NCBI RefSeq assembly: GCF_000016125.1
Contig: NC_009135.1
Location: 682,001 to 746,000 of the forward strand
Direction of reading: 5' to 3'
From: Methanococcus maripaludis C5
GTDB lineage: Archaea > AGJL01 > Methanococci > Methanococcales > Methanococcaceae
DNA length: 64,000 bases
Below are positions 46,202 through 63,943 of this stretch, in pieces. Within the stretch, counting starts at the first letter, position 1, and each line of letters begins with the position of its first letter. The translations under genes and the position numbers were made by a program. The notes beneath the pieces were generated by a model. The model was not told the DNA's origin, made no database searches, and was given only the letters and a program-made list of their open reading frames with translations.

Positions 46202-46954
46202 TCACTCGTATTTTGACATATACCCTCTTGGAGTAATCATCATGCCGTCGATAATTTTTGTATTGCTGTTTCCAACAACAAGGGTTGTACTCATGTCAAT
46301 ATACTGCATAAATTCGTCCAAATTATTAACAAGATTATTTATTGTAGTTATTTTGTATTCAAAATCGTTTCTTCCTGCATTTTTAACAATTCCAATAATG
46401 TAATCGATATTTCGGTCTTCAGAATAGTTCGAGATTATTTCAACAGTTTTTAAGAAAGGTTCTTTTCTTTTTTTACCCAGAGGATTATAAATTGCAAGAA
46501 CCATGTCGCTTTCTACTGCGCAATTTATTCTTTTTAAAATAGTTTCTAATGGCGTTAAAAGGTCGCTCAAACTAACAACTGCAAAATCGTGGTTTAAAGG
46601 TGCACCAAGTATTGATGAACAGACACCTGCAGAAGTAAGTCCGCTTACGACGTTTATTGTAACGTTGTGTAAATTCTTTTCATTCAATTCATATGCAAGA
46701 GATGCAAGACCATATATCGTAGCATCGCCGTTTGAAACAAGTGCCACATTTTTATTTTCAGCTTCTTTTAGGGCATATTCAACCCTTTCAACTTCTTTGG
46801 TCATGCCGCTTACGTAAATTTCTGTATCAAATCTTTCAATATATTTTTTGTATCCTGTATAGCATACAATTAAATCAACAGAATTTAGTGCATTTTCAGC
46901 TTCTTTAGTAAAATATTCCTCGTTTCCAGGACCGATACCAACAACATACAACAT
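46202..46954 (-). CDS. cobJ: Precorrin-3B / cobalt-precorrin-3 C17-methyltransferase
   Basis: The 250-residue protein is a tetrapyrrole methylase: MLYVVGIGPGNEEYFTKEAENAL at the start, CYTGYKKYIERF, the motif LVSNGDATIYGLASLAYEL, VVSGLTSAGVCSSILGAPLNHDFAVVSLSDLLTP and a C-terminal IIDGMMITPRGY. In the anaerobic route used by methanogens it contracts the corrin ring at C17 (CbiH/CobJ). It adds a ring-synthesis gene to the cobamide set in the window. Confidence 0.9.
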   Translation of the reverse strand: MLYVVGIGPGNEEYFTKEAENALNSVDLIVCYTGYKKYIERFDTEIYVSGMTKEVERVEYALKEAENKNVALVSNGDATIYGLASLAYELNEKNLHNVTINVVSGLTSAGVCSSILGAPLNHDFAVVSLSDLLTPLETILKRINCAVESDMVLAIYNPLGKKRKEPFLKTVEIISNYSEDRNIDYIIGIVKNAGRNDFEYKITTINNLVNNLDEFMQYIDMSTTLVVGNSNTKIIDGMMITPRGYMSKYE

Positions 46955-47333
46955 TTTATCACAGAATCAGTTAAAATACAGTTATAATTTTTAAAAACAG
47001 TTTATTTAGCGTTAGATTAATAAATGGTAGCTGTGTCAGATAGTGCTGATGTCTTCATCCCAAAATCATGAAAATCATGAATTTAGTCAGCGGGGGTAAC
47101 TGTCATCATACAACGTTATTGGTGTCATAAAAAACCCAATATTTGGCTACCATTGTTACCCGTATACTATTAACATGGAATATACTCTAAACATTTATAT
47201 ATTTTGTTAATAGTCGGACAATGGCTTACGGTTTTTTGATACCTCAAAAAAAATTAAAAACTCCTCCATGATACGATAGTTTTTTATAAAAAATAATTTC
47301 CAGAATAATATGGGGGAGGTATGAGGTGAAATT
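46955..47333. other. Intergenic stretch with several inverted repeats
   Basis: This 379-base gap separates the core chromosome from the integrase cassette. It holds AATGGTAGC (47023-47031) with GCTACCATT (47146-47154), GGGTAAC (47094-47100) with GTTACCC (47155-47161), ACTATTAAC (47166-47174) with GTTAATAGT (47206-47214), and a tandem AAAATCATG (47072-47089). A TATA-like TTTATATATT lies near 47193. It may hold recombination or regulatory sites for the nearby integrase. Confidence 0.5.
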
Positions 47334-47867
47334 ATTCATAGACATCACCTGTACTTCAAAAATGATGAAGAATTTGAATTTTTTAAAAAGATGTCAGAAG
47401 ATCTAAAATATACTAGCTTTAACGCATTTGCTAAAGCTGGAATGATCTACATGCACAAAAGTTTAAAAGATGAAACTTTTGACGATAAACAAATTTTAAA
47501 AGAAATTCTTTCGTTATTGAAAGATTTAAAAGAAAATGATTTTGAAAAACCTGTAAAAACAAAAAAAGTATCTGTAATTGACGACTTTAGAGAAAAACTA
47601 GAGAATACGCCAACAGATACGGAATATAATTTCATACTAAATTCAGTTTTAAATATCCTATCAACTGAATTTCCGCGATGGGTTGATATTGAAGACATAA
47701 TCCATAGAATAGGAATTGGAAATAACAACATGGCAATAGGTCTATTCCAAAACATGATTTTTGAGAATCAGGAATTTAAAAATCTAGTCGAAAGAAAGCA
47801 CCGCATGCTAAGAGCAAGAGATTCCGCACTACCTCATGAAAAATATCTTATGAAAATAAGTGATTGA
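47334..47867 (+). CDS. Ribbon-helix-helix-like protein upstream of the integrase
   Basis: The conventional start is ATG 47391 (158 residues), but the frame stays open upstream to a TGA at 47322. The extra codons encode HRHHLYFKNDEEFEFFKKM, which supplies the strand and first helix of a ribbon-helix-helix fold that continues as SEDLKYTSFNAFAKAGMIYM. GGTG at 47325-47328 lies five bases before ATT 47334, so an AUU start is plausible. The rest is helical with no known domain. It may regulate the integrase, which begins nine bases after its stop. Confidence 0.5.
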   Translation: MHRHHLYFKNDEEFEFFKKMSEDLKYTSFNAFAKAGMIYMHKSLKDETFDDKQILKEILSLLKDLKENDFEKPVKTKKVSVIDDFREKLENTPTDTEYNFILNSVLNILSTEFPRWVDIEDIIHRIGIGNNNMAIGLFQNMIFENQEFKNLVERKHRMLRARDSALPHEKYLMKISD

Positions 47868-47876
47868 GGTGTGTTT

Positions 47877-48740
47877 ATGGATTACCTATCAAAAGAACTC
47901 GTTAAAAAGTATCTTGAGTTTCATACGAGCCTCAGTAAAGACAGCTTAAAGTATTACAAAGCAGGGTTAAATGCGTTCATGAAATACTTTCCAGATGAAA
48001 ACAAATCTTGGGAAAACTTGACAGTAGAAGATGCAATATTCTTTTACAGATCATACAACGTATCCAAAAATACAAAGATCCGAAGACTAAACGACGTTAA
48101 CAGATTTTACAACTGGGCAATGAAACAAAAGTACTTGGTTGAAAATCCAATTGAAACATTTGTAACTACATTAAGACCTGAAAAAAAGGAAAGGGCATAT
48201 TTAACAGAAAAACAGTTTAAAATACTGCTTTCAAATGTTAAAGATTTTAATTACTACACATACACTCTTTTCCTTTTAAAAACGGGAGTTAGAATTTCGG
48301 AATTTGTAAATTTGAAAGTAAAACAAGTAGATTTTGAAAACGGGATAATATTCATTCACGCAGGAAAAGGGGCAAAGGACAGGTACGTCTTTATGGATGT
48401 TGAACTTGCATCAAGGCTTGAATACTATCTTGAAATGAGGATATTAACTAATCTATCATGTAACAACTTCTTCGTAAATAAACACGGGCGAAAACTTGCA
48501 GAAGATCAGATTACAAAATATACGGATTATTTAAATGAAGTAATGGATGGAAGTATTTCATTTAGAATAACTCCACATATATTGAGACATACGTTTGCAA
48601 CTGCAATGCTCGAAAAAGGAATGGACTTAAAATCGCTTTCTTTGATTTTGGGGCATGAAGATATCAAAACAACTTCCCAATATCTTCACAAAAATAAAGA
48701 AGCACTGCAAAAAGAGTATTTAAAAGCAATGGCTCGATAA
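47877..48740 (+). CDS. Tyrosine recombinase / integrase (XerC/D-like)
   Basis: The 287-residue enzyme has the SAM-like N-terminal domain and the catalytic residues in order: Arg in KTGVRISEFVNL, Lys in HAGKGAKDRYV, HILRHTFATAML (His-x-x-Arg), His in LGHEDIKTTSQYLH and the Tyr nucleophile therein. It could be a chromosome-dimer resolvase (XerA type) or the integrase of a mobile cassette; the adjoining regulator and plasmid-like genes favour the latter. ATG 47877 follows GAGGTGTG. Its stop abuts the stop of the next gene. Confidence 0.88.
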   Translation: MDYLSKELVKKYLEFHTSLSKDSLKYYKAGLNAFMKYFPDENKSWENLTVEDAIFFYRSYNVSKNTKIRRLNDVNRFYNWAMKQKYLVENPIETFVTTLRPEKKERAYLTEKQFKILLSNVKDFNYYTYTLFLLKTGVRISEFVNLKVKQVDFENGIIFIHAGKGAKDRYVFMDVELASRLEYYLEMRILTNLSCNNFFVNKHGRKLAEDQITKYTDYLNEVMDGSISFRITPHILRHTFATAMLEKGMDLKSLSLILGHEDIKTTSQYLHKNKEALQKEYLKAMAR

Positions 48741-49709
48741 TTATTCCTTACTTTTTTCTTTTTTTTTGGCATAGTTTGAATCAAAATGTATTTCGCCGTC
48801 TTCAAAACATAATGAACCAATAGATTTTCCTTCTTCGTCTTCGTTTTCATCAGTAATAATTTTTCCAAGTAGTTTGGGAATTCTGTCAGAAGATACTGAA
48901 TAAAGTTCGTCTGTTTTTTCGTCTGCATAGTAATGAATTATATGGCCTGGAATTGAATGTGTTCCAAGATATATCATATCTAAAATATACTCTTTCATTA
49001 TATTGAATACGTCCTCTTTGGTTTTAACTTCCCATTTTTTGATTTCTCCTAAGGTGGGAAAAAATGTTTTAACTTCCCATACGGGAATTAAGAAAAAACG
49101 TTCAAAAGTATCTTCAGTTACTCCATAACCTGAAAATATGTAAACAGGATTTCCTTTTGAAAGATCTTTCCTGTTAATTATCTGATTCCTTACATCCTCT
49201 TCAGAATCTGGATTCATCATAATATCTAAAATTCCAATTTCCTGATTATCCCCTTTCCCATCGATATATCTGGCAGGTTCTATTCTTATCACAATTTGAC
49301 CCAAAATATCGTTTTTCATAGTAAATTGTGGTTTTACAAATGCAATTTTTGCTCTTCTATCCAATTCAATTTCTTTAATTTCGCTAAATATACCATCAGT
49401 AAAAAATTTTTCAAATGCTTCTTTTTCCAAAATACAGCTGGACTGTATTCTTATAAATTCTTTGTATGGTTTAATCAATTCCCATGCGTTTTGAGTTCCT
49501 TCATAGTATACCTTTACTCTATTACCCTCTTTTTTTTCATACCGATTTACTAAACGGTATTTTACAAATTCAGATAATATCGCACTTAGATTAGCCTGAT
49601 TTATTCCAATGCCATTTTTTAATTCATTGAAATAGCATCCTCCGTCTGTATAGGATACCTCTTCTAGTATTCTAAAAGCATTTTTCTTAGATAGTAATTT
49701 AAAAATCAT
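48741..49709 (-). CDS. Winged-helix regulator with a large C-terminal domain
   Basis: The first 70 residues form a winged helix (YFNELKNGIGINQANLSAILSEFVKYRLVNRYEKKEG). The remaining 250 residues match no family I know; they are mixed alpha/beta, with no membrane segment, and end in a lysine-rich tail. It is divergent from a three-gene cassette, and three TAACTAGTTA-type sites lie in the shared control region, so it probably controls both promoters. Its stop touches the integrase stop. Confidence 0.65.
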   Translation of the reverse strand: MIFKLLSKKNAFRILEEVSYTDGGCYFNELKNGIGINQANLSAILSEFVKYRLVNRYEKKEGNRVKVYYEGTQNAWELIKPYKEFIRIQSSCILEKEAFEKFFTDGIFSEIKEIELDRRAKIAFVKPQFTMKNDILGQIVIRIEPARYIDGKGDNQEIGILDIMMNPDSEEDVRNQIINRKDLSKGNPVYIFSGYGVTEDTFERFFLIPVWEVKTFFPTLGEIKKWEVKTKEDVFNIMKEYILDMIYLGTHSIPGHIIHYYADEKTDELYSVSSDRIPKLLGKIITDENEDEEGKSIGSLCFEDGEIHFDSNYAKKKEKSKE

Positions 49710-49780
49710 TTTTCCACCAGTTCACTAAATTCTCACCAATACAATAGTATTCTCGATAATATATATAGTTATATTATTGA

Positions 49781-49893
49781 TACTAGTTAAAAACCATAAC
49801 CTTTATATATATGCCTCAGACATAGGAAAATTACAGGTTGATAAACATAACTAGTTAAAATTTTCTTATTAGATTTACAATAATAACTAGTTA
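49781..49893. promoter_or_regulatory. Three TAACTAGTTA-type palindromes at a divergent promoter
   Basis: TACTAGTTAA at 49781-49790 and TAACTAGTTA at 49848-49857 and 49884-49893 share a perfect core ACTAGT, and the last two are full 10-base palindromes. They surround a box A (TTTATATATA, 49802-49811) that would drive the rightward cassette, and an AT-rich promoter for the regulator lies at about 49757-49770. They look like operators, probably for the divergent regulator. Confidence 0.55.
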
Positions 49894-49929
49894 AGATATT
49901 CGTAACCAATCTGTAAAAAATAAACCAAG

Positions 49930-50211
49930 GTGGTTAAAGGCGAAGGAATTTATAAAGACGTCAAAAAGTCTCTGGCGTTTAAAGAATACGAAATCATTGA
50001 TTTTTTAGGATCAGAAACCTATAAATTAAAAGTTTTGAAGCCAAACTCCGAGTTTTTGGGATATGAAGATGTTAAATTGAATAAATTCGTTTTAAAAGAC
50101 GAAAAAGGTTACTATTCAATAGTTACCAAACGAAAAGATCTGGAAATTAACAAAAAAGTTAAAATTCGCTATATTTACGGCGATTTTGAAATTTTGGAGG
50201 TGGGAATGTGA
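49930..50211 (+). CDS. Hypothetical protein, cassette gene 1
   Basis: I do not recognise this 93-residue, beta-rich, lysine-rich protein (for example EYEIIDFLGSETYKLKVLKPNSEFLGYEDVKL). The only usual start is GTG 49930, just after an in-frame TAA and without a clear ribosome site upstream, so the start is doubtful. Its stop overlaps the next gene as GTGA, so the cassette genes are translated as a unit. Confidence 0.5.
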   Translation: MVKGEGIYKDVKKSLAFKEYEIIDFLGSETYKLKVLKPNSEFLGYEDVKLNKFVLKDEKGYYSIVTKRKDLEINKKVKIRYIYGDFEILEVGM

Positions 50212-50624
50212 TTAAACTTGATTTATCCAAATTCAAAGAACCGGAATCCTTTGCAATATCTCAGGGGTACGTACAGTTAATTCCTGGGCAGGATACTGAA
50301 ATTACTGGAACCGATTCTGAGGGAAAGCCAGTATACAACAACAAATTCAACATGGAAAAAAGAGGTCGTGTAAGAATTGTAAGCAGTTACTATGCCAAAG
50401 GAAGAGATCCTAAAACTGCAACAATTACAATGCTCGATTTAAAGATGATCGGGGATTTTTATGAAAAGAATAAAGATGCCATATCGCACTATGCAAGCCT
50501 CGATGCAATATTCAAGCTCGTTGAAATGAAAAAATTCAATGCATCCCCTGAAACAATTAAAATGTATGCAAAAGACCTAGGGATTTCTGAAAAAATTTTG
50601 AATGAAAAGGTTTTTGACAGGTGA
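50208..50624 (+). CDS. Hypothetical protein, cassette gene 2
   Basis: A 138-residue protein of unknown function. The first half looks beta-rich (SQGYVQLIPGQDTEITGTDSEGKPVYNNKF), the second half helical. It might bind DNA but shows no motif I can name. GTG 50208 has GGTGG upstream at five bases. Both ends overlap neighbours by four bases (GTGA), a sign of tight translational coupling. Confidence 0.55.
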   Translation: MIKLDLSKFKEPESFAISQGYVQLIPGQDTEITGTDSEGKPVYNNKFNMEKRGRVRIVSSYYAKGRDPKTATITMLDLKMIGDFYEKNKDAISHYASLDAIFKLVEMKKFNASPETIKMYAKDLGISEKILNEKVFDR

Positions 50625-51853
50625 TCAAATTAATACACGATTTGAGCCATATAAAATCTGAAAAATTCGATAACCACAAATTTATCTCAAAAAGAAGAAT
50701 TTTGATAGATAAAGTCTTCTGTTCAGTTTATTCAACTTCTTTATTTGTAAACCTTGAAAGAAAGTTTCGAGACGATGTAAGGGATAAATACATCTCTTAC
50801 GTTGATAAAATTCAAGATTTCAAAGGACATACGCAAGGGTTAAAGTTTCCGCTTGAAATAAATGGGGACAAAGAAATCGCTTGGATTAACATATCCCTAA
50901 GAGAACCCCACGTTGCAAAAGTGTATTTTAATGTTATAAGACTGTACCAAAAAGAAAAAAATATTCCGATTCCAACTTACGGCTACAACGATACTAACTT
51001 CCTCCCCCTCGAATATAATGATACTAAAGCCCTGCTTATGGAGTTCATTGAACTCTATTTGAAAACAGTTTTGGAAATAAAGGAAATATATGCAGACTAC
51101 TTGTTACAGCTATTTGGTATTGACATTAAAAACTATTGGAAAGGTCTCGAAAAGAAAGAAATCAAAGATCTTGTTGAGGTTTCACCGTTTCAAATTGAAA
51201 TCCCTTGTGAATATTTGGGATGTGAAGACGAACAGTTTGACTGGATGGATGATGAAATAAAATGCAGTACTGTGGAAAAATTTGGAGATCTTTCTGGAAC
51301 TACTTACTATAATAAAAACAGGAAAGATTTAAAAGCAACGTTCAAACGATATCAAAAGGCTCCCGGAATAAACCGGCATGAAATAACCCTTCAAGAAAAC
51401 TGGGCGCGCGACTGCATGAATTCTGATTCTGAAAATATCTATCAAAATATAATAACTTCTGTTCACAAAGCCCATAGACTCTGGGGTCTTGACTTTGAGG
51501 GAGTAAAACCAAGGCCTATAAATGGCAATGTTCTGATTTCGCAGTTTTCAATGGGTTTTGGACTCTCAAATGACGAAATAAAAACCATGATCTATGGAAA
51601 TGTTGGGGAAATTACCTCAAACCGTGAAAATCAAGGAATTATTAGAAAATTACGAAATAAAGGAATGATTCGAAAACTGGAAAAAGATGAAGGTGGGAAA
51701 AAGGGAGTTTACGTCTGGACTGAAATGGTAAAACTTCTTAGAATGTCTTTAAACCAGTATTTCTTATGTCCTGAATGTTTAACAAGAATGCAGTACGATT
51801 ACGAAAATTACTGTCACTACTGTCCCGCATGCAAAAAAGTAATTAGATATTAA
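50621..51853 (+). CDS. Possible replication initiator with winged helix and zinc ribbon, cassette gene 3
   Basis: This 410-residue protein ends with a helix-turn-helix stretch (LSNDEIKTMIYGNVGEITSNRENQGIIRKLRNKGMIRKL, about residues 308-346) and a zinc ribbon (CPEC and CPAC, with an HYC pair). The middle part GTTYYNKNRKDLKATFKRYQKAPGINRHEITL resembles the YxKxxRxE-type core of plasmid or phage replication proteins. I offer replication initiator as a weak hypothesis. No nuclease HUH motif is obvious. Confidence 0.5.
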   Translation: MIKLIHDLSHIKSEKFDNHKFISKRRILIDKVFCSVYSTSLFVNLERKFRDDVRDKYISYVDKIQDFKGHTQGLKFPLEINGDKEIAWINISLREPHVAKVYFNVIRLYQKEKNIPIPTYGYNDTNFLPLEYNDTKALLMEFIELYLKTVLEIKEIYADYLLQLFGIDIKNYWKGLEKKEIKDLVEVSPFQIEIPCEYLGCEDEQFDWMDDEIKCSTVEKFGDLSGTTYYNKNRKDLKATFKRYQKAPGINRHEITLQENWARDCMNSDSENIYQNIITSVHKAHRLWGLDFEGVKPRPINGNVLISQFSMGFGLSNDEIKTMIYGNVGEITSNRENQGIIRKLRNKGMIRKLEKDEGGKKGVYVWTEMVKLLRMSLNQYFLCPECLTRMQYDYENYCHYCPACKKVIRY

Positions 51854-51891
51854 CTTTTTTTATTTTTTTATGGATTTAAAAAGACGTAAAC

Positions 51892-52548
51892 TTAAACTTT
51901 TACTACAGTTCCAAATCCCCTTGAAACATTTCTTCCAATTCCCAAATACTGTGGAATATCAAAATTAATATAAAATTCACCCCTAAAACCAACCATATTC
52001 TGATTTTTGAATTTCACGGGCACTTCTTTGAGATTTATCTTAACTTTTAATTTTTCTTCGATAGTATAACCCAAAGATTTTGACATTGAAAGAATATTTC
52101 CAATTAGTACTCTTTTTAAAAATTCTTCACGATCTATTTCGTCTGAATTTTTGTAAATTTCTGAATTTTTAGCATTTAATGCCATCCACGGGGTTTTGAA
52201 TTGATACTTCAAAATTTTGTCGGTGGTGCCAAAATGATCCATATCCTTATGTACGTTTACTTCAGTTATATCATTGGTATCATTTGAAATAATTAATTCT
52301 TTTTCAAAAAATATTCTTTTGCTTTCCAAAAAATTAATCCCTAAACTACCGATTCCAATAATTAATGGACTTCTGTCGATAATTTTAAACTGAATTTGGG
52401 GATATTTATAAACAAAAGCATTATCACGATGATTATGGACTATTTCTTCATCAATATACTTTTTTGCAAAATAACCACGCAATTTTGAACCATCCCTCAT
52501 ATTCAACAGTATATTGGGATATGAAATATGCATGTATTCTAAATCCAT
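51892..52548 (-). CDS. cas6: CRISPR RNA endonuclease Cas6b
   Basis: Cas6b cuts the precursor CRISPR RNA inside each repeat, leaving the 8-base 5' tag AUUGAAAC. The 218-residue RAMP protein has the C-terminal glycine-rich loop GIGRNVSRGFGTVVKV. His38, His40 and Tyr47 in the segment VHNHRDNAFVY agree with the catalytic residues I recall for the M. maripaludis C5 enzyme. It is the last gene of the interference operon, nine bases after cas3. Confidence 0.92.
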   Translation of the reverse strand: MDLEYMHISYPNILLNMRDGSKLRGYFAKKYIDEEIVHNHRDNAFVYKYPQIQFKIIDRSPLIIGIGSLGINFLESKRIFFEKELIISNDTNDITEVNVHKDMDHFGTTDKILKYQFKTPWMALNAKNSEIYKNSDEIDREEFLKRVLIGNILSMSKSLGYTIEEKLKVKINLKEVPVKFKNQNMVGFRGEFYINFDIPQYLGIGRNVSRGFGTVVKV

Positions 52549-52557
52549 TTTTAACCC

Positions 52558-55020
52558 CTAACTAAACAATGTTTTATGTTTTATTTCACAATTATCTAAT
52601 GCTATGACCCCAATGTTTTCATCATATATTTTGTTGTAATCTTCGCTGAGAATGTAGTTTAAACCATTAAATTCATGAGTGAAGTCAGAATATTTATTTA
52701 ATATATTTTCATAGATTGAAACCCTATTTTCGTTTAATTCTTTCTTTAAAATTTCATATTTTTCACTTAATTTACCAAATTCCATTTTATTTTCCCCATA
52801 TATTTCAGTTATCTGAATCATTGCTTCATGGGTTTTTATAAGTTCTTTTATTTTTAAATCCGAAGTTTCGTCTGGTGATATTATTACATCAAACTTTTTA
52901 TGGTCAGTTATAACCTTGAACATATTTACAGGCAATATTTTATTTTTATTATATTCTTTCATTTCATAAATTAAATTATAAATACTATTTAATAGAAGAT
53001 TGCTTTTTCCAGATAGCATATATTTTCCATAATACTGATTAGACAGCCCCCAATAATCTTTACTCATATATTTATCATTTTCAAGTAATTCCCGGGTTAT
53101 CTGTATTGATTTGGGATCATATATACTAGATCCGATTCTCCCATTTTCACCAACGTAATTAAATAAATACATCTTTCCAATATCGTATTCATTGCTTCTG
53201 TTTACCCGTCCGGATGTTTGAATTATTGAATCCAATGGTGCAACATCCCTAAATCCATATTGAAAACTTAAATCTACGCCTGCTTCAATTAGTTGGGTCG
53301 AAACTAAAATAATTTTTTCATTACCTTTTAACATTTTGTTTATTTTTTTTATGCGATTTTTCCTATCCTTTGGAGTTATATTGGTAGTTAAGGATAATAC
53401 TGAATATTCTGAAAATTTTTCATTTTTTCGTATTAATTCATAAAGTTTAATTGCCACATTTATTTTGTTACATACCACAATTGCAGAATTCCCAAAAAAT
53501 AGTTTTTCAAAAGAGTCTAAAAACTGTTTTTCGTCAATTGGAGTTAATCCGTTTATTTTGTACAGTTCTACACGATCAAATTCATTATTGGTAAAATAAC
53601 GAGTATTTACAAGATTTACTGAATCTTCGCATGCCAAATTTGGTTGTGTTGCAGTTAAAAAAATAATGGTCGTTTTAAATCGTTTTGAAAGTATTTCAAA
53701 TACCATTTTTATTAATTTATAATATTCTGCGGGCATTGTCTGAATTTCATCCAAAATAACTATCGAATTGATAATATTATGAAATTTTTTAAGTCTTGAA
53801 TTTTTATTACTAAATATACTCTCGAAAAATTGAACAAATGTTGTGATAATATTTGCGCTTTCCCATGATTCCAATAATAATTTTTGGTCCATATATGTAA
53901 TGTTTATATCGCTGTCCTGCGTTAAATTGCAATCTTCTTCATTATCTAGTCCTTTAATAAGTAATGGAGTTAAATAATGGTGTTTTAGTAAATATTTAGT
54001 TGGTTTTTTGGAATATTCTTCCCCAATAAAGTACTTAAATATATTTTCCATTTCCCCATGTGTCTGGTCAATTATACTGCTATATGGAAGACAATATATT
54101 ATTCGGTTACTTTTAGGGTTTAACGATTTAATCTTATTTGCTAGGCCCAAAACTGTTAGTGTTTTTCCGATACCTGTTGGCGCATTTACTGAATACATAT
54201 AACATTTATTAGAAATCATTGGATTTTCAACTACATCCTGATAAAACTGATCCCTTAATAAATTCATATTATTCTTTACAAATTTTTCAGCCATTTCCTG
54301 TTTCAAATTATTAATATATTCTTTGATATCATAATATGATTCCACATTGTCTGTAAAATATTCATTGGATAAATTAGCAGCTTCTTTTTTATCAGAATCT
54401 ACCAGAACAGAGTATAATAAATTGCACGTTAAAAAACGTTCTATCGCATCACTTGATTCTAACTCTTCATCCAACATATCTTCCATATCATCAATAAATG
54501 ATTCAAAATCTTCAATGGTTATTTCCATATTCAAAAAAACTTTTTCGAGATCTATTTGATATTCCAAAAGCAATGTTTCATAAATTTTAAACACTTCTTC
54601 TTTTCTGGAAAGAATATCTTTGTACTGCACTTTGAGATCTTTTTCTAACCTTGAAGATATACTTTCCAGTGGACATTTTATGTTCCCGTGATGATTTTTT
54701 ATAGCAATGTATGAAATTATTGAAAAATCTTCATTATGGACATATTCTTTTAACAGGTGGTAACCGAAAATAGATGAAATTAGACCATGATGTGAATATT
54801 CTGAATTTTTATTTTCATTTAATTTACTCTGAAAAAAACTAGTGGATTTTCCAAAATCATGGGCTATACCTATCAAATACCCTAACTTCGGCAATAATTC
54901 CTTATCTATTAATTTAAGATCCAAATCTTTTTTAACTAAAATATTCTCTATATTCTTTCCCACATTAAAAAGATGGTCTTTTAATAACTTTTTTTCGTGA
55001 GACATTATTAAATTTTGCAT
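52558..55020 (-). CDS. cas3: CRISPR-associated nuclease-helicase Cas3
   Basis: Cas3 unwinds and degrades target DNA found by Cascade. The 820-residue protein has an N-terminal HD nuclease domain (LIGIAHDFGKSTSFFQ, YSHHGLISS; residues about 50-90) and a superfamily 2 helicase with Walker A APTGIGKTLTVLGLA (about residue 282), the DEAD-type box VILDEIQTMPAEYY, FLTATQPN and the motif VI region QTSGRVNRSNEYDIG. It lies between cas5 and cas6 in the leftward operon. Confidence 0.94.
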   Translation of the reverse strand: MQNLIMSHEKKLLKDHLFNVGKNIENILVKKDLDLKLIDKELLPKLGYLIGIAHDFGKSTSFFQSKLNENKNSEYSHHGLISSIFGYHLLKEYVHNEDFSIISYIAIKNHHGNIKCPLESISSRLEKDLKVQYKDILSRKEEVFKIYETLLLEYQIDLEKVFLNMEITIEDFESFIDDMEDMLDEELESSDAIERFLTCNLLYSVLVDSDKKEAANLSNEYFTDNVESYYDIKEYINNLKQEMAEKFVKNNMNLLRDQFYQDVVENPMISNKCYMYSVNAPTGIGKTLTVLGLANKIKSLNPKSNRIIYCLPYSSIIDQTHGEMENIFKYFIGEEYSKKPTKYLLKHHYLTPLLIKGLDNEEDCNLTQDSDINITYMDQKLLLESWESANIITTFVQFFESIFSNKNSRLKKFHNIINSIVILDEIQTMPAEYYKLIKMVFEILSKRFKTTIIFLTATQPNLACEDSVNLVNTRYFTNNEFDRVELYKINGLTPIDEKQFLDSFEKLFFGNSAIVVCNKINVAIKLYELIRKNEKFSEYSVLSLTTNITPKDRKNRIKKINKMLKGNEKIILVSTQLIEAGVDLSFQYGFRDVAPLDSIIQTSGRVNRSNEYDIGKMYLFNYVGENGRIGSSIYDPKSIQITRELLENDKYMSKDYWGLSNQYYGKYMLSGKSNLLLNSIYNLIYEMKEYNKNKILPVNMFKVITDHKKFDVIISPDETSDLKIKELIKTHEAMIQITEIYGENKMEFGKLSEKYEILKKELNENRVSIYENILNKYSDFTHEFNGLNYILSEDYNKIYDENIGVIALDNCEIKHKTLFS

Positions 55021-55027
55021 AATTAAC

Positions 55028-55729
55028 CTATTCTAAAAAGCATATATTTTTGTTAGAAATTCCAAAAACTTCCTTAAATTTGCCAGAAATTGGTTTTCCA
55101 GACTTTTCGTATATTATTTCAGATTTATTACTACTTTCTCGAGATCCATTAAAGTCTATTGGCATTCTTTCGCGTAAAAGCTGTTTTTCTTTTTCAAAAT
55201 TGATGTCTATAATATTGTTTTCAGATATACACGTTGATACTAAACCATCAAAGTCATTTTTTCTAACGATTTCTGCCCCTACATATTCTTTATGAAATTT
55301 TGCAAAAGCCCTGAATTGCCTTTGTCCGAAATATAGCCCATAGCCCCAATTTTCATCAATTAAACGCTTTTTAAACAATTCATACTTTTCTTGATCAGTT
55401 GAATAAAAATATACCATATATCTTACATTATGATTTACAGGCATTACTATTTCAACACTTGTTGGAGAAGTTCCATTTTTTCCAATATAATTTGTATTGT
55501 ACATTCCTTTTCGACTTTCTGATAATATCTGAATTCCAAATCCCGCATTATCTTTTGAAAGCCAGTTATAATAAGAATCCCTCTTCTCTTCAAGTACTGA
55601 CGCAACAATTCCCATAAGCACGGTTCTCGGAGGTACTGAATAGGTAAGTGACGAAGCATTTGAATAGAACTTTTTGAAATGTGCAAATTTCCCATAAAGT
55701 TCAAATTCAAGTATTTTATCAACATCCAT
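55028..55729 (-). CDS. cas5: Cascade subunit Cas5 (type I-B)
   Basis: Cas5 caps the 5' tag end of the crRNA in Cascade. The 233-residue RAMP protein has the family N-terminus ILEFELYGKFAHFKKFYSNASSLTYSVPPRTVLMGIVASVL and a glycine pattern close to the Cas5h subtype. A GAGGTTTC ribosome site precedes the ATG. It follows cas7 by ten bases and precedes cas3 by seven. Confidence 0.93.
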   Translation of the reverse strand: MDVDKILEFELYGKFAHFKKFYSNASSLTYSVPPRTVLMGIVASVLEEKRDSYYNWLSKDNAGFGIQILSESRKGMYNTNYIGKNGTSPTSVEIVMPVNHNVRYMVYFYSTDQEKYELFKKRLIDENWGYGLYFGQRQFRAFAKFHKEYVGAEIVRKNDFDGLVSTCISENNIIDINFEKEKQLLRERMPIDFNGSRESSNKSEIIYEKSGKPISGKFKEVFGISNKNICFLE

Positions 55730-55739
55730 TTTTGAAACC

Positions 55740-56618
55740 TCAGATGACTAATTTAGTAATTTTAACATTTTTATTGTACGTATTCTCATCAGTTAAGGTT
55801 TCAAATTCGGGCACACTCAAATTTTCATGTTTCCAACATATAATTTCAGAAATTTTTTCAGTATTCTTTTTTAAATATCCAATAAGATTGGAAATGTTTA
55901 ATTCCACATCTAAAACATTGTTTAGATTTTTCTTATTTTTCAATGAAATATACTCCCTTAAATCGTCAAGGTATGATTTTTCGTCTTTTAAACATACCCT
56001 AATATACAATCGTGGTGTTTGACCAATTTTTGACCGGGTTCTACAAAGCGGTATTGAATTTAAAATTGCTTCGTCAAGCAATACAATATCTTTTTCTGAC
56101 AACGTAGATGTTTTTGCAGCATTTCCATTGATTGCACCGTTAAACGCAATTACAGAATATTTTACTCGATAATCCTTACCAACACCCGTTCCCGAACTAA
56201 AACTTGAGGTTATTGTTGTAGATTCTTGTAATTCCACTTCGTTCAGAGAATAACCCCAATTAAATTGAACTGGGCCAGATATGTGGGAATTAGACCCTTC
56301 TTCTGCAAATACTGCTCCAAAAAGCCTTACATCTATCAAATCAGTGTGTTGTTTCTTATTTGAATCTAGTTGCTTAGCTCGATCTTTCGAATCTTTTGCA
56401 TTTTCAGTTATGAAAATTTCTTCCCCGAGATATTTTTCAAAATAGTCTCTTATGTATCGTTTAAGCCTTACATCACTTACAAGATTTGTATTTGTATCCC
56501 AATCCATTCTGGGCTTGTTCTGATTATCCATGTCCCCATTTGGGTTTGTTTTTTCTGCATCATATATAAATAAAATTTCTGAATTTGTGATTATATTACT
56601 TACATCTTTGTTACTCAT
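55740..56618 (-). CDS. cas7: Cascade backbone subunit Cas7 (Csh2 type)
   Basis: Cas7 forms the filament that covers the spacer part of the crRNA. The 292-residue protein begins with the Csh2 signature EILFIYDAEKTNPNGDMDNQNKPRMD and LVSDVRLKRYIRDYF, and includes VDVRLFGAVFAEE and ITSSFSSGTG. I choose ATG 56618, seven bases after GGTGGG; this overlaps the cas8b stop by eight bases, which couples the two. Confidence 0.94.
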   Translation of the reverse strand: MSNKDVSNIITNSEILFIYDAEKTNPNGDMDNQNKPRMDWDTNTNLVSDVRLKRYIRDYFEKYLGEEIFITENAKDSKDRAKQLDSNKKQHTDLIDVRLFGAVFAEEGSNSHISGPVQFNWGYSLNEVELQESTTITSSFSSGTGVGKDYRVKYSVIAFNGAINGNAAKTSTLSEKDIVLLDEAILNSIPLCRTRSKIGQTPRLYIRVCLKDEKSYLDDLREYISLKNKKNLNNVLDVELNISNLIGYLKKNTEKISEIICWKHENLSVPEFETLTDENTYNKNVKITKLVI

Positions 56619-58563
56619 TATTCCCACCTTTTTTTTCCATATAATATTTATGACCTAAATATCTTCCAAATGAAACTCCTGAAAGGACATAAAATACGAT
56701 TTCATCCCCTTTTAATTCGGAATTATCTATTCCCTGTAGTCTATCTACCATCTGCGAATAAACCCCATTATTTTCAGAGTATATTTTGTAAATTGACAAA
56801 TATTCTGTAACATCTAAAATAAGTCTGTGAACCCTTTTTGAAGGAATTCCATCAAAATTTATTTTATTCATAAAATTGCCGGATTTATCATTTTGTTCCA
56901 GCAATATTTTATTTATCAAATACCCCAATAAAAAAAGACCCTGTCGATAGGTGTTATTGGAGTATATGTCTTCATGTATTCTAAAAAATTCCAAAATATC
57001 TTTATCCTCAATTGGAATTGCTGACGTATCAACCATGTTATCAAAACCCCCTGTAAATCCCGAAATTTTGTTGAACCATGTTAATAAGATATTCATTTGA
57101 ATGTGTCGCTCTCGGAGTCTACGATCGTTGTTATATTCAGTATTGAAATAATATTTTTTAAAAATGTAATTAAAATTTCTAAGAATTTTATCATAGTTTA
57201 TTGCCCTTCCGTTAATCATGCTTGAAAATAATGATAAAAACTCTTTTTGATATAATTTTGAATCTACTTTTGTGTGGGATAGTTTATTTGGAAACAAAAG
57301 TACGTACACGTGGTTAAATACTACTTCAATTAATTTTGAATACAATTCTTCGTTAGTTAATCTTTTTAGTTCATCGAAAATAAATTCCATTCTTGAATAG
57401 GAAACATCAGTAATATTTTCAAGAACCGTGAATTTTGCTTTATCCTGGGTATAAAATAGATAATCCAAAACAAAATCTTCGTTTTTATATTCTACACGTT
57501 TTATATCCCTTATCTCATTAAATTTACCATTTACTGACGACGAAGTACCCTGTAATTTATCATTAATTTTTTTACAGACTTTTTTAAAATTTGGATCCGA
57601 ATAATTATTTTTAGGAATAATATAATAAGAAATACCTTTTGCAACCTGACCCCCAAAATTCTTTTGAATTTCAGAAATTCCGATTCTCAGTTCTTCGAAA
57701 CAGTTTTTGCATATTGAAAATGATTTATGCTTATTTTTTTCAGTTAGATTTTCAAAAAAATATTTATTATCAGTTATATAAAACGAAAGTGGAATATCTA
57801 TTTTACCAGTAATGTCTGATTCAGTTCCGCAAATTCCGCAAATTCCTTTCTTAAGTTCGGCCTTATCAAAATACCGCTCTTTTAAAGTGTAATCAACAAT
57901 ATTTACATAATCCTCTTTAAATCCCGTTTCTAAAATTGATTTGCCATCTATTTTTAAACTGTAAATATTTACATAGGTTTTTAATTCCGATTTTTTACTG
58001 GATTTAAGGTCAGGATAATTTTCAGTTTGTACTTTTTTGCAGTATTCTTCAATGTCCTTAATAGAGACTTGTTCTTTCCCGATTTCCAATTTTATATTGT
58101 TCTGAAGTTTTTCAAAATCCAATCCACAATATTTTTTTTCCTTACCTTTATCTATCCGGATTTTTTCTGTGCAAAATGTATCTTTAATGTTCAAAAGGTA
58201 TTTTTTAAATTCATCATATTCTTTAGACTTTTTAAAGTCTTTTTCTATCTTTTCGATCATTTGGGGTACGGTAATATCGAGGTATCTTAATTGATTGGTT
58301 GTAAAGTATATTTTTTTAGGATTACCCTTTACAGGAATTTCAAAACCCATAAAGTCAAATCTATTTTCTTCGGATAACTCTTTTCCAAGTTTAATCTCAA
58401 TTTCATTTGTAGAGGTATTTAAATTCAAAATTATCTCATAAAAAGTTTTTTCAGGTATTGTTTTTGGAACTATCGTCTGAAATTTTAAAAATTCCAATTT
58501 CCGATCTGCAGGAGAAAGACCGTTTAGCTTTTCCGCCCCTAACTTTCTAAAACTGGTAATCAA
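56611..58563 (-). CDS. cas8b: Cascade large subunit Cas8b (Csh1 type)
   Basis: Cas8b recognises the protospacer-adjacent motif and helps recruit Cas3. The 650-residue protein has a zinc site with CGICG and CKNCFEEL (about residues 245-300) and the C-terminal helical part with GVSFGRYLGHKYY. The start is TTG at 58563, six bases after GGGGTG. It is the first gene of the leftward interference operon and is divergent from cas1. Confidence 0.9.
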   Translation of the reverse strand: MITSFRKLGAEKLNGLSPADRKLEFLKFQTIVPKTIPEKTFYEIILNLNTSTNEIEIKLGKELSEENRFDFMGFEIPVKGNPKKIYFTTNQLRYLDITVPQMIEKIEKDFKKSKEYDEFKKYLLNIKDTFCTEKIRIDKGKEKKYCGLDFEKLQNNIKLEIGKEQVSIKDIEEYCKKVQTENYPDLKSSKKSELKTYVNIYSLKIDGKSILETGFKEDYVNIVDYTLKERYFDKAELKKGICGICGTESDITGKIDIPLSFYITDNKYFFENLTEKNKHKSFSICKNCFEELRIGISEIQKNFGGQVAKGISYYIIPKNNYSDPNFKKVCKKINDKLQGTSSSVNGKFNEIRDIKRVEYKNEDFVLDYLFYTQDKAKFTVLENITDVSYSRMEFIFDELKRLTNEELYSKLIEVVFNHVYVLLFPNKLSHTKVDSKLYQKEFLSLFSSMINGRAINYDKILRNFNYIFKKYYFNTEYNNDRRLRERHIQMNILLTWFNKISGFTGGFDNMVDTSAIPIEDKDILEFFRIHEDIYSNNTYRQGLFLLGYLINKILLEQNDKSGNFMNKINFDGIPSKRVHRLILDVTEYLSIYKIYSENNGVYSQMVDRLQGIDNSELKGDEIVFYVLSGVSFGRYLGHKYYMEKKGGNNE

Positions 58564-58607
58564 ATTTTACACCCCAATTATATCCCCTTTAAAAATAAAC
58601 TATATTA

Positions 58608-59636
58608 TTGAGTGTTAACAGATATAATGTTATCGGTTTTAATCGGGGGGATATCATAAAATTAATTATCAACACTCCTGGAACATACATTTCAAAATCA
58701 GGAACTCGTTTTAAATTAAAAAATGGAGAAAATGTACAGGAAATTCCTGCAAAAAAAGTAGAACAGATTTTAATTACCTGCCCTTCATCAATATCAACTG
58801 AGGCCATATCGCTAGCAGTTGAAGAAAATATTGATTTAGTACTCTTAAAAATGAATGGAAAACCAATTGGAAGATTTTGGCATTCAAAACATGGCAGTAT
58901 CTCAACAATTAGAAAAAAGCAGCTCTTACTTTCGGAAAATGAACTTGGGATAACTTTTGTTAAAGAATGGATTTCTAAAAAGATGGAAAACCAGATTGAT
59001 TTTTTAAAAATGCTTTCCATGAATCGTAGAGACGAAAGAAGGGAGTTACTTAAAGAAAATGTCTTAAAAATTGACGAAGAAATAAAAAAATTAGATAATG
59101 TTACATTTAATCAAAATATTGATGAAATAAGAAATACAGTTCAGGGTTACGAAGGTTATGCAAGTAGGGTTTATTTTGAAATGATTTCAAAAAGTTTACC
59201 TGAAAAATACCAATTTAACGGAAGAAGCAGGAATCCTGCAAAAGATTATTTTAACTGTATGCTAAACTACGGCTACGGAATACTTTATTCTCAAATTGAA
59301 CGCTCCTGCATAATTGCAGGACTTGACCCATATATCGGAATTTTACACGTTGATAACTACAATAGAAAAGCATTTACTTTCGATTTAATTGAAAAATACA
59401 GAATATACGTTGATAAAACCATTTTTAAAATGTTTTCGACTAAAAAAATTAGAGATGATTTTTTTGAAGAAATTGAAGGTGGGTTTTTCCTAGCAAAAGA
59501 TGGAAAACAGGCATTAATTTCTGAATACAACCTATTAATGGAAAGTACCGAAAAATACCGTGGAAAAAATATGGAAGTTCAAAATATAATCCAGTCAGAT
59601 TGTCACAACATCGCAAACAGGATTTTAAACTGGTGA
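58608..59636 (+). CDS. cas1: CRISPR integrase Cas1b
   Basis: Cas1 with Cas2 inserts new spacers at the leader end. The 342-residue reading has the metal-site Glu in GYEGYASRVYFEM, the His in LDPYIGILHVDNYNRKAFTFDLIEKYR and the Asp therein. Family members begin near IKLIINTPGTYIS, which suggests that the first 16 residues from TTG 58608 are not made: GGGGGG at 58645-58650 lies five bases before an in-frame ATA at 58656. It is divergent from cas8b. Confidence 0.9.
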   Translation: MSVNRYNVIGFNRGDIIKLIINTPGTYISKSGTRFKLKNGENVQEIPAKKVEQILITCPSSISTEAISLAVEENIDLVLLKMNGKPIGRFWHSKHGSISTIRKKQLLLSENELGITFVKEWISKKMENQIDFLKMLSMNRRDERRELLKENVLKIDEEIKKLDNVTFNQNIDEIRNTVQGYEGYASRVYFEMISKSLPEKYQFNGRSRNPAKDYFNCMLNYGYGILYSQIERSCIIAGLDPYIGILHVDNYNRKAFTFDLIEKYRIYVDKTIFKMFSTKKIRDDFFEEIEGGFFLAKDGKQALISEYNLLMESTEKYRGKNMEVQNIIQSDCHNIANRILNW

Positions 59637-59640
59637 AATA

Positions 59641-59931
59641 ATGCTGTTATGGGTTATTTATGATATTTCAAACGATAAAATAAGAAGTAAGGTTTCAAAA
59701 ACGTGTTTAAACTATGGATTATACCGGGTTCAGAAAAGCGTCTTTTTAGGTGAAGTTGAAAGTAATTCATTAGATGAATTAAAGATTCTTTTGGAAGATA
59801 CTATTGATATGGACATTGATTCAGTTTACGTATTTCCGATGAGTAAAGACGAACTAAATAAAGCAGGATTAATTGGTCAAGCATTTGATAAAGAGTTGTT
59901 GTCTGATGAAATCGTCTCAAAATTCTTTTAA
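59641..59931 (+). CDS. cas2: CRISPR adaptation protein Cas2
   Basis: Cas2 is the structural centre of the spacer integration complex. The 96-residue protein has a ferredoxin-like fold with LLWVIYDISNDKIRSKVSKTCLNYGLYRVQKSVFLGEV and the C-terminal VYVFPMSKDELNKAGLIGQ. GGTGAAATA stands before the ATG. cas4 overlaps its end by about 26 bases. Confidence 0.94.
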   Translation: MLLWVIYDISNDKIRSKVSKTCLNYGLYRVQKSVFLGEVESNSLDELKILLEDTIDMDIDSVYVFPMSKDELNKAGLIGQAFDKELLSDEIVSKFF

Positions 59932-60526
59932 CGAGTTTAATGAAAATGAATATTACATAACTCCTTCAGAAATGCTTGAATTCCTGTATTGCAAGAGGTT
60001 TATCTACTTCATGAATTATTTGGGGATAGAACAACATCAAGAAAAGAGATATAAGGTAATGAAGGGTAGAACCATTCACGAAAAAAAGGAAATAGAAAAT
60101 GCGAACTATTTGCGTAAAAAAATAAATGTGATTGACAAAAAAATAAACGTTTCGATGGTTTCAAAAGTTTATGGGATTAAAGGAATTGTTGACGAAGTTT
60201 TAACTCTTTCAGACGGCACTATGGCACCACTTGATTACAAATTTGCTGAATACAAGGGTAAAATTTACGAAACCTACAAAATGCAGACTATAATGTATTC
60301 TTTAATGATATCCGAGACTTTTGAAAAGGAAGTTAAACATGGATTTATATTATACTGCCGTGGAAAAAACGTTTTAAAAGAAATAAATATGACTGAAAAA
60401 GATGTCAATAAATTAAGTGAATATTTAGACGAATTCAAGAAAATATTAACGGGATATTATCCAAAACCAACGTCATATAAACAAAGATGTATTGATTGTT
60501 GTTATAGAAATATTTGCGTAAAATAA
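59906..60526 (+). CDS. cas4: CRISPR adaptation nuclease Cas4
   Basis: Cas4 trims prespacers and helps select their PAM. The 206-residue RecB-family protein has Fe-S cysteines in EFLYCKRFIYF and QRCIDCCYRNIC, and the nuclease motifs KGIVDEVLTL, PLDYKF and KMQTIMYSLM. I start at ATG 59906, inside cas2; the earlier ATG at 59873 would overlap cas2 further. The CRISPR leader begins right after its stop. Confidence 0.9.
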   Translation: MKSSQNSFNEFNENEYYITPSEMLEFLYCKRFIYFMNYLGIEQHQEKRYKVMKGRTIHEKKEIENANYLRKKINVIDKKINVSMVSKVYGIKGIVDEVLTLSDGTMAPLDYKFAEYKGKIYETYKMQTIMYSLMISETFEKEVKHGFILYCRGKNVLKEINMTEKDVNKLSEYLDEFKKILTGYYPKPTSYKQRCIDCCYRNICVK

Positions 60527-60878
60527 TTGTTTCTTGAAAATTATCCTGCGTTTTCCAAACGTATTTCATTTATTTAAAAAATCAAAATAAGATTTAAAAC
60601 GATATATTTTAAAAATACCTGCAAATTTTAAATATTTTTAATCATGGGAAATAAAAATAACTGTAATGCATACCATATCATAAAATAATATATGAATTTT
60701 GGTTTAACCAATATTTTCATTTATATAACGTTTAAAATGTAAGCAGGGCATATGAATGATCCATTGAACTAATTTAAACGAGTATTTATTTTTTGTTGAT
60801 AAAATGAATAAGAAAAGTAAATATAATGGCAGAATCATAAAACTACTTCGTTATTCTAGAGTTTCTATCGTATTATGT
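60527..60878 (+). promoter_or_regulatory. CRISPR leader
   Basis: A 352-base AT-rich region with no gene, between cas4 and the first repeat. The leader must lie on this side because the repeats read with ATTGAAAC, the crRNA 5' tag, at their rightward end. A box A (TTTATATAAC, near 60719) could start the precursor RNA about 130 bases before repeat 1; a second candidate is AAATATAA near 60818. Spacer addition would occur at the 60878/60879 border. Confidence 0.8.
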
Positions 60879-62906
60879 CTAAAAGAATAACTTGCAAAAT
60901 AACAAGCATTGAAACTTCTCCTTCCATCTTGAACAGTGTGAGGTAGCAGGCTAAAAGAATAACTTGCAAAATAACAAGCATTGAAACATTAATCCCATAA
61001 TACTTTTCTAGGTCTGGGCGGAATCTAAAAGAATAACTTGCAAAATAACAAGCATTGAAACTAAAAAAAGAAAAAAGTTAAAAAAGCTAGAATAACTAAA
61101 AGAATAACTTGCAAAATAACAAGCATTGAAACAAAAAACAGATTGAAAAATTAACGGCAAAACAATGAACTAAAAGAATAACTTGCAAAATAACAAGCAT
61201 TGAAACAAAACGAAAGAAGACTCAACAAGCTAGAAAAACAATCTAAAAGAATAACTTGCAAAATAACAAGCATTGAAACCAATTGCTAAGAGTGCACTAA
61301 TCGCACTAATAAACTAAAAGAATAACTTGCAAAATAACAAGCATTGAAACATTTTAAGTATGCGATGTACTCGGATTGATAAATTCTAAAAGAATAACTT
61401 GCAAAATAACAAGCATTGAAACACGTAGATACGCTTGTTGCTTCAATGGAAAATTCAGAAGGCTAAAAGAATAACTTGCAAAATAACAAGCATTGAAACT
61501 TTGTGAATCCCATACAAGGGTTACAGCAGTTACAGCTAAAAGAATAACTTGCAAAATAACAAGCATTGAAACATTTATACGACTAGAAGACCGGCAAAAG
61601 TGTATACGGCTAAAAGAATAACTTGCAAAATAACAAGCATTGAAACAAAATAAAGCAACGGTTATAAGTCCGGTTGCGATCTAAAAGAATAACTTGCAAA
61701 ATAACAAGCATTGAAACAGCGTCTATATAAGCGGAACTATACGCACTTTCCGGTCTAAAAGAATAACTTGCAAAATAACAAGCATTGAAACCGAATGAAA
61801 CGAGCGAAACAAGTAATAAAAAATCAAGCTAAAAGAATAACTTGCAAAATAACAAGCATTGAAACCAGTAAAAACATTTTGATTTATTATTTTGATCCAT
61901 TCTAAAAGAATAACTTGCAAAATAACAAGCATTGAAACCAGTAAAAAAAGTTAATGAAGAAATTACACCAAGTACTTCTAAAAGAATAACTTGCAAAATA
62001 ACAAGCATTGAAACTCGATATAAGCGGAACTATACGCACTTTCCGCTCTTAACTAAAAGAATAACTTGCAAAATAACAAGCATTGAAACTTTTTTTATAC
62101 GTTTAGTAACAGGGTTAATTCTGTTTACTAAAAGAATAACTTGCAAAATAACAAGCATTGAAACTTTAATTCCCATTCATGGTTTGGATCTGGAATAAAT
62201 GCTAAAAGAATAACTTGCAAAATAACAAGCATTGAAACTTTTGTTCGTGTCTTTTCTTCTCAATAATTCTTTTAAACTAAAAGAATAACTTGCAAAATAA
62301 CAAGCATTGAAACTTTTTTTATTGTAATCGGTTATACTGTTGTATTCTGTCTAAAAGAATAACTTGCAAAATAACAAGCATTGAAACACAATTTAGATGT
62401 TATAGAGTTTTTAAAACAGAATAAACTAAAAGAATAACTTGCAAAATAACAAGCATTGAAACTACAGAATTTACGTGATTTTAATTATGGTATATATTCT
62501 AAAAGAATAACTTGCAAAATAACAAGCATTGAAACTATTGTCGATTTTATTTCGCTTAACTCTGTCGGATTATCTAAAAGAATAACTTGCAAAATAACAA
62601 GCATTGAAACTGATGGAGTCAAAAGGTAAGACTGTTAAATTTCCGGCTAAAAGAATAACTTGCAAAATAACAAGCATTGAAACACCTTGAAAATATAACA
62701 TATGAGCAAAAAATTGAAATCTAAAAGAATAACTTGCAAAATAACAAGCATTGAAACCCACCGGCGGAGGGCTCTAAAACGAGGGTACTCGAATACTAAA
62801 AGAATAACTTGCAAAATAACAAGCATTGAAACCTGATGAAACGAGCGAAACAAACAATAAAAAATCAAGCTAAAAGAATAACTTGCAAAATAACAAGCAT
62901 TGAAAC
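60879..62906 (+). CRISPR. CRISPR array, type I-B, 28 repeats and 27 spacers
   Basis: The 37-base repeat begins CTAAAAGAATAACTTGCAAA and ends AACAAGCATTGAAAC; the copies appear identical. CTTG and CAAG can pair across an 8-base loop. Spacers are 34-40 bases (27 in all, total 992). The first repeat is 60879-60915 and the last canonical one 62870-62906. Transcription is rightward and Cas6b would cut before ATTGAAAC. Spacer 13 (61792-61828) and spacer 27 (62833-62869) are near-copies, as are parts of spacers 12 and 16. Confidence 0.98.
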
Positions 62907-63165: not shown

Positions 63166-63176
63166 TGGTGATACAT

Positions 63177-63724: not shown

Positions 63725-63725
63725 C

Positions 63726-63929: not shown

Positions 63930-63943
63930 GACCTCTTTTAGTG

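Follow-up and report, generated by a model that had tools for sequence, protein, structure and literature searches.

The genome of Methanococcus maripaludis C5 (1,780,761 + 8,285 bp) contains a cassette of six genes between cobJ and a type I-B CRISPR (clustered regularly interspaced short palindromic repeats)-Cas locus. This raises the question of whether the cassette is a mobile element of its own or part of a larger one that also holds the CRISPR-Cas system. The locus is located in a stretch of 64,000 nucleotides, here called the window (bases 682001-746000 of the larger contig), and positions are counted from its first letter. The original prediction had described the genes at 47334-51853 as a possible integrated element next to CRISPR-Cas. 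In this study, E1 is used for this cassette plus the whole integrated element to which it belongs. The cassette most probably serves for the integration and replication of a 17.2-kb integrative element, which holds CRISPR-Cas I-B and a toxin-antitoxin pair and targets the 5' end of the C/D box small RNA (sRNA) gene sRNA-A. The support for this reading is found at the sequence level, in gene content, attachment site (att) repeats, empty sites and the recurrent use of two sRNA genes. For comparison, 22 genomes of the family (labeled G001 and so on) were used, and the profile search for the replication protein Rep was extended to 36 genomes of the order.

The ends of E1

The following features are found at the ends of E1:

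46202 to 46954, minus strand, cobJ (tetrapyrrole methylase), chromosomal neighbor outside E1 (Pfam TP_methylase 5e-30; in 21/22 family genomes)
47036 to 47109, minus strand, sRNA-A, C/D box sRNA gene and probable integration target (C box 47103-47109, D box 47036-47039)
47099 to 47115, plus strand, left copy of the att core (attL), overlapping the C box of sRNA-A (two-copy core search)
47116 to 47206, minus strand, 5' leader of the sRNA with a TATA-like promoter, left copy (putative promoter role, judged from TATATAAA)
47099 to 64000, plus strand, the part of E1 within the window (att repeats and the empty sites of G001 and G002; in full 47099 to 64295, 17.2 kb)
64279 to 64295, direct orientation, right copy of the att core (attR), 279 bp past the window end

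The 17-bp core ACTGTCATCATACAACG, which is the 5' (C-box) end of the sRNA-A gene, occurs in exactly two genomic copies, at 47099-47115 and 64279-64295, in direct orientation and 17,180 bp apart. With one mismatch allowed, there are still 2 matches in 1.79 Mb, and the control gave 0. The att direct repeats that the original prediction asked to look for are present, and they bracket the cassette, the entire CRISPR-Cas locus and the toxin-antitoxin pair. These three parts had been noted to lie together on one side of cobJ, and all are located between 47099 and 64295. The limits first drawn for the element (47334-51853) were too narrow, as E1 actually runs from 47099 to 64295. The cassette alone was considered as the element and rejected; no att core is present at 51853-51892.

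The gene order in C5 is cobJ, sRNA, E1, a gene for a 157-residue protein and sucD. In G001 and G002, the order is cobJ, sRNA, the 157-residue gene and sucD with nothing inserted, showing that the genes are not found at this place in all relatives. The chromosomal flanks of E1, joined at the core, are identical to the uninterrupted G002 site at 263 of 272 aligned bases, and the element sides match this site at 74/98 and 67/92 in heavily gapped alignments. attR lies exactly where the homology to the G002 empty site restarts, and behind it stands a second, diverged version of the leader and TATA-like promoter of the sRNA. Together with the grouping of the recombinase with three paralogs (see below), the att repeats and the empty sites of G001 and G002 support the earlier reading of an integrated element.

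To the right of attR, an extra insert precedes the 157-residue gene and sucD. This 1.75-kb insertion (64411-66162, approximately L080:6412-8163) lies just outside attR and is missing from G001 and G002. It encodes a 354-residue DUF4041/T5orf172 protein and has an exact 21-bp direct repeat on both sides.

The probable target gene sRNA-A

The sRNA-A gene is located upstream of cobJ and is present in one copy each in 21 of the 22 family genomes. The C-D'-C'-D boxes are found in strict form at 18 of 21 orthologous loci, and the D' guide has 11 nt complementary to the genome's own 23S rRNA. The D guides of sRNA-A and of a second such gene, sRNA-B, reach 7 nt each at most in the 23S stretch searched. 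By box and guide criteria, as read from the sequence, 47036-47109 is a C/D box sRNA gene. No Rfam family matches this stretch up to E 1; to our knowledge, the Rfam library contains few archaeal guides.

In G004, G005 and G006, sRNA-A lies away from cobJ, yet members of the integrase family still adjoin it. Because sRNA-A and the integrase lie together away from cobJ in these genomes, cobJ was rejected as the integration target. There are no tRNA genes within the 64-kb window, and therefore no tRNA att site for the E1 integrase there. On either side of sRNA-A, the sequences AATGGTAGC (47023-47031) and GCTACCATT (47146-47154) make up an inverted repeat and could pair into a terminal stem of the sRNA-A precursor.

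The cassette and its sister elements

The six genes of the cassette, including a ribbon-helix-helix (RHH)-like gene, were rechecked by coordinates and sequence and sit where they had been placed:

47334 to 47867, plus strand, RHH-like small DNA-binding protein, beside the integrase (homologs at the same place in E2, E3 and E4)
47871 to 48740, plus strand, tyrosine recombinase (integrase, Int; Pfam Phage_integrase 1.9e-37)
48741 to 49709, minus strand, divergent winged-helix regulator with a C-terminal extension (weak MarR match, 0.11; phrog_11195 3e-4; aligns with 4 sister-element regulators)
49930 to 50211, plus strand, p1, small replication-operon protein (aligns with counterparts in 3 other elements)
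50208 to 50624, plus strand, p2, second replication-operon protein (aligns with 5 counterparts)
50621 to 51853, plus strand, Rep, with a predicted rolling-circle-initiator-like domain, winged helix and zinc ribbon (predicted fold; invariant cysteines)

Three further loci with the same plan have been identified in the C5 genome: E2 (~1,212-1,244 kb), E3 (~914-924 kb) and E4 (~208-219 kb). All four contain the RHH gene and the integrase at one end, a divergent winged-helix regulator, p1, p2 and Rep, with p2 doubled in two of E2, E3 and E4. In E1, p1, p2 and Rep overlap at GTGA. Because the same gene order recurs at three further places in the genome, and Rep is present in 11 copies in 7 of the 22 family genomes, the cassette is not a product of chance.

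The recombinase groups with the three paralogs of E2-E4, to which it is 47-55% identical (35-37% for Rep). The other recombinases of C5 match it at ≤32%, except for short stop-broken pieces (38-49% over 45-59 residues), and XerA was not identified by name. The family alignment indicates that the E1 integrase retains R141, K166/K169, H236-x-x-R239, H262 and Y271, which we take to be the catalytic residues. In the E3 integrase (L022:14181-15008), F replaces the family's catalytic tyrosine and the C-terminal tail is missing, and E3 is therefore probably trapped.

The RHH gene was found at 47334-47867 as proposed, but without a conventional start codon: its frame contains no ATG, GTG or TTG from the stop at 47322 to 47391. 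A GGTGA ribosome-site-like stretch lies upstream of the ATT codons at 47331/47334. The start may be AUU, one base may be missing, or a shorter product may begin at 47391. The regulator of E1 is 322 residues long compared to 120-184 residues in its relatives, and its extension is related to nuclease-like proteins of the sister elements (52-residue matches, 33-37%). It looks like a winged helix fused to a piece of a nuclease-like protein that is encoded by a separate gene in the sister elements.

Members of the integrase family recur at C/D box sRNA genes. Flanks were examined for 12 members of the integrase family, leaving out a Rep-bearing element of G003 with an unrelated integrase (24% to that of E3), and 8 of these 12 are located at a C/D sRNA gene. 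Four related elements have ends resolved at such genes, with E2 and the G001 element at sRNA-B and the elements of two other species, G009 and G006, at sRNA-A. The G009 element lies between cobJ and sucD and has a 17-bp repeat at the same position in sRNA-A. Its deduced attP would have 24-bp direct repeats on each side of the core that resemble arm sites, either of Int or of the RHH protein. In G006, the arrangement is a tandem, and the second core is immediately followed by another RHH-integrase pair and by the flank common with G004. The different C/D sRNA gene sRNA-B was found in 19 of the 22 genomes (3-mismatch pattern). Its boxes are strict at 8 of 20 loci, including the 7 of C5's own genus, and its D' guide matches 23S rRNA at 12/12 nt. 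The ends of E2 are an 18/19 bp repeat 31.9 kb apart, and those of the G001 element a 19/19 bp repeat 27.0 kb apart; to the right of both elements, the flanks show synteny with the stretch that follows sRNA-B in G002.

In G005:C2 (L163, L139, L131, L132, L082, L058), approximately 83 kb of foreign DNA extends from sRNA-A and the integrase to the flank shared with G004. This DNA includes cas I-B genes, and RAMP-like genes and a tailed-virus-like cluster were judged by eye to be present. The sRNA-A site may be a hotspot of accretion.

Beyond Rep, E2 and the G001 element appear to hold a virion-like set, with predicted small membrane proteins, a P-loop ATPase and secreted proteins with a C-terminal anchor. 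At this place, E1 has CRISPR-Cas, and no gene at 47099-64295 matched the virion-like cluster, which is present wholly or partly in E2, E4, G001, G002 and G009. The provirus-like clusters (L060, L086, L064, L061), with a P-loop ATPase, tandem small membrane proteins and large secreted C-terminal-anchor proteins, recall pleomorphic or spindle-shaped archaeal viruses, with no clear family match.

The Rep protein

The 410-residue protein had been guessed to combine a winged helix, a zinc ribbon and a Rep-like core, and structure prediction is in agreement with all three. The fold rests on an AlphaFold2 model built from 11 members, with a mean pLDDT (predicted local distance difference test) of 83. 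For residues 22-296, the best fold match is RepSTK1 (4cij; Z 10.1, 187 residues, 4.0 Å), with a sequence identity of 10%. Chains of TATA-binding protein (TBP) follow at Z 8.9, and above Z 7 only initiators and TBP were found. Residues 301-380 resemble a MarR-type winged helix in the fold search, and C383, C386, C401 and C404 are invariant in 11/11 members, fitting a zinc ribbon. A viral structure library gave a best E of 1.8e-6 with a large root-mean-square deviation, and one of the matches is an inovirus Rep.

The relation to known Rep families is thus visible in the fold (4cij, Z 10.1) but not in a curated family score. The window protein matched no replication family, and no Pfam model exceeded its gathering score, giving no confident family. 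PF05144 (the G2P replication family) was matched by 1 of 11 members, at 0.0023. Y229 and Y244, invariant in 11/11 members, are candidates for the catalytic tyrosine. The conserved stretch T-x-Y ... K-x-YQK-x-x-G-x-x-R-x-E-x-T presumably recalls the motif region of the Rep_trans/RepSTK1 and G2P families.

In the order-wide search, 7 of 36 genomes were positive for the Rep profile, all from one family. No relatives were found in genome-contig, viral-contig, plasmid and phage collections, which may omit near genomes.

CRISPR-Cas and toxin-antitoxin genes within E1

The half of E1 beyond Rep contains the following features:

51892 to 52548, minus strand, cas6b (Pfam Cas6b_C 1.3e-42; PADLOC)
52558 to 55020, minus strand, cas3 (PADLOC Cas3b 1.1e-166)
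55028 to 55729, minus strand, cas5b (PADLOC 6.2e-40)
55740 to 56627, minus strand, cas7b (PADLOC 1.4e-58)
56611 to 58563, minus strand, cas8b (PADLOC 7.9e-142)
58608 to 59636, plus strand, cas1 (PADLOC 3.7e-127)
59641 to 59931, plus strand, cas2 (PADLOC 3.9e-41)
59873 to 60526, plus strand, cas4 (PADLOC 4.9e-77)
60879 to 62906, plus strand, CRISPR array with 28 repeats and 27 spacers
63165 to 63724, plus strand, toxin-antitoxin pair of a DUF2683 protein and a ParE-like toxin (Pfam 1.6e-8 and 8.7e-6)

The Cas6b of M. maripaludis C5 has reportedly been the subject of an earlier biochemical study. A single CRISPR repeat with an altered 3' end (63726-63762) lies directly behind the toxin gene, as though the toxin-antitoxin pair had entered the CRISPR array at its far end. 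The sister elements and the plasmid were considered as targets of the CRISPR spacers and rejected, as the 27 spacers gave short or low-complexity matches only against the loci compared.

A related locus is found in G003, where cas6 also adjoins sRNA-A. Between C5 (window 51892-60526) and G003 (L067:7469-15611), cas1-cas2-cas4 are 84% identical in DNA and cas6 is 72% identical.

Alternative explanations

Several observations weigh against E1 being a single 17.2-kb element that targets sRNA-A. The integrases of E3, E4 and two in G002 (4 of the 12) are not located at a C/D sRNA gene. For E3, a search for terminal repeats gave none, and for E4 and one of the G002 elements none longer than 12-14 bp. 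In the integrase tree of 11 rows, which does not include the second G006 copy, the E1 integrase falls outside the supported sRNA-A/sRNA-B clade, so that 2 changes are required for the sA group. Among 100 simulated sequences, the longest word in common had a mean length of 12.6 and a maximum of 18, so that the repeat length alone is weak; the proposed ends of E1 are carried by the position of the core, its uniqueness and the empty sites. The leaders are ambiguous as well, because the G001 empty site has a left-type leader, matching the left copy at 90% over 114 bp, and the G002 site a right-type one, matching the right copy at 92% over 123 bp, and either copy may be native. E1 may also be partly decayed, since its RHH gene has no standard start codon. 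The G003 locus bears on the cargo: cas6 lies beside sRNA-A with no cassette there, and a second att core was not found within 40 kb to the right of the CRISPR array. For this reason, CRISPR-Cas may have been at the site before, or without, the E1 integrase; it may be an older resident there or have entered E1 later. In addition, the cas7 and cas3 proteins of C5 and G003 match at 30-32% and cas5 has no match. The difference of these genes, next to the similarity of cas1-cas2-cas4, makes the cas locus a mosaic with a history longer than one insertion.

An older residence can be taken further. In that case, CRISPR-Cas was already present beside cobJ, an integrase-Rep element of ~4.7 kb then integrated between the sRNA and cas6, and the far repeat remains from a previous insertion or from rearrangement of the locus. 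The absence of the cassette next to cas6 in G003 favors this explanation, as does the 84% identity of cas1-cas2-cas4, because of which the locus is taken to be common to both genomes. However, such an insertion requires an attR between Rep, ending at 51853, and cas6, ending at 51892, and no core is present there. A search of the window with a 15-mer and ≤3 mismatches gave, besides attL, only an unrelated reverse-strand match at 19899, and the far repeat lies exactly where the homology to the G002 empty site restarts. We consider this order of events unlikely.

The att copies and empty sites could also result from ordinary deletion by homologous recombination between the imperfect 110-bp leader repeats, without an integrase. 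The G001 site does resemble a recombinant in which, at the TATA region, the left leader gives way to the right flank. Deletion does not account for a core at this very position of sRNA-A in G009 and G006 and of sRNA-B in E2 and the G001 element, or for the integrase of the same family that is always adjacent, and the origin of the repeat would still require an insertion; this makes the explanation improbable. Least credible is the possibility that the conserved stretch of 74 nt acts as a cis-regulatory leader for cobJ, instead of a C/D sRNA, and that integration upstream of cobJ has been selected. In several genomes the sequence does precede cobJ and share its strand, and no Rfam family matches it, but in G004, G005 and G006 it is not beside cobJ and family integrases adjoin it anyway. 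The C, D', C' and D boxes, the guide matching 23S rRNA and the second example, sRNA-B, elsewhere make a cobJ leader very improbable.

Proposed mechanism

For E1 as an integrative element, we infer recombination activity, the replication mode, promoter replacement and the role of CRISPR as cargo. Int, probably aided by the RHH protein, would recombine the att core of E1 with the 5' end of sRNA-A, which comprises the C box and the start of the D' guide. Because the insertion takes place at this end, sRNA-A would be severed from its own leader and promoter. E1 would supply a diverged copy of both, so that an intact sRNA-A transcription unit would be present at attL. Once excised, circles of E1 would be replicated by the rolling-circle-type Rep under the control of the divergent winged-helix regulator. 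Through the toxin-antitoxin pair, loss of E1 would carry a penalty, and the CRISPR system would earn its keep by defending the host against rivals.

A more speculative extension, which we hold to be rather unlikely, is that the integrase family is specialized on the C box of C/D genes and swaps the promoters of its targets, and that E1 is a satellite in which CRISPR and toxin-antitoxin genes replace the virion module and which is moved in E2-like particles. With such a specialization, one enzyme family could move among many C/D genes by changing few contacts. The satellite idea arises because E1 has CRISPR-Cas where E2 and the G001 element hold the virion-like set; E2, the related provirus-like element, is co-resident in the C5 genome.

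Comparison with known systems

With E1, the suspicion of a CRISPR system beside an integrase becomes a defined 17.2-kb unit with both proposed ends placed to the base. C/D box guide RNA genes, struck at their 5' end, would join the landing sites of archaeal elements. In addition, E1 offers a testable path for entire type I-B systems to enter or leave archaeal genomes, in a genus of methanogens with good genetics. In section 19 of a 2021 review, tRNA genes, intergenic sequence and protein-coding sequence are given as archaeal att sites (PMC8371274). Neither E1-type elements nor att sites within C/D sRNA genes were found described in one open-access library, from which most subscription papers are absent.

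The pT26-2-related plasmids of Methanococcales resemble E1 in encoding tyrosine recombinases and in being integrated in genomes of this order. According to the same review, they target tRNA-Ser or tRNA-Leu, with att sites of 50-60 bp for Methanococcales integrases (PMC8371274), whereas E1 would target a C/D sRNA gene at its 5' end. Integrated elements of archaea with type I-B systems are already known from Thaumarchaeota, as described in the available part of the report on the cryptic elements NitVie-E4 and NitEve-E4 (Krupovic et al. 2019, PMC6563490). These elements resemble E1 in having a complete I-B cas set and an array. They belong to another phylum, C/D sRNA genes are not among the att sites reported in that part, and the word sRNA is absent from the main text (PMC6563490).

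The Rep of E1 is similar to the initiators of the Rep_trans/RepSTK1 (4cij) and G2P (PF05144) families in the predicted fold of residues 22-296. It differs from them in its 10% identity and in the added winged helix and zinc ribbon. Phage satellites, such as the phage-inducible chromosomal islands (PICIs) and P4-like satellites, contain an integrase and a replication module, lack virion genes and carry defense cargo. E1 resembles them in its genes and is found in one genome with the related provirus-like E2. The recombinases of the staphylococcal cassette chromosome mec (SCCmec) differ from that of E1, and SCCmec is bacterial. For SCCmec with CRISPR-Cas, the available part of the published account describes a CRISPR-Cas system that is excised as part of the integrated cassette (PMC10434264), and this is the path that is proposed here for E1.

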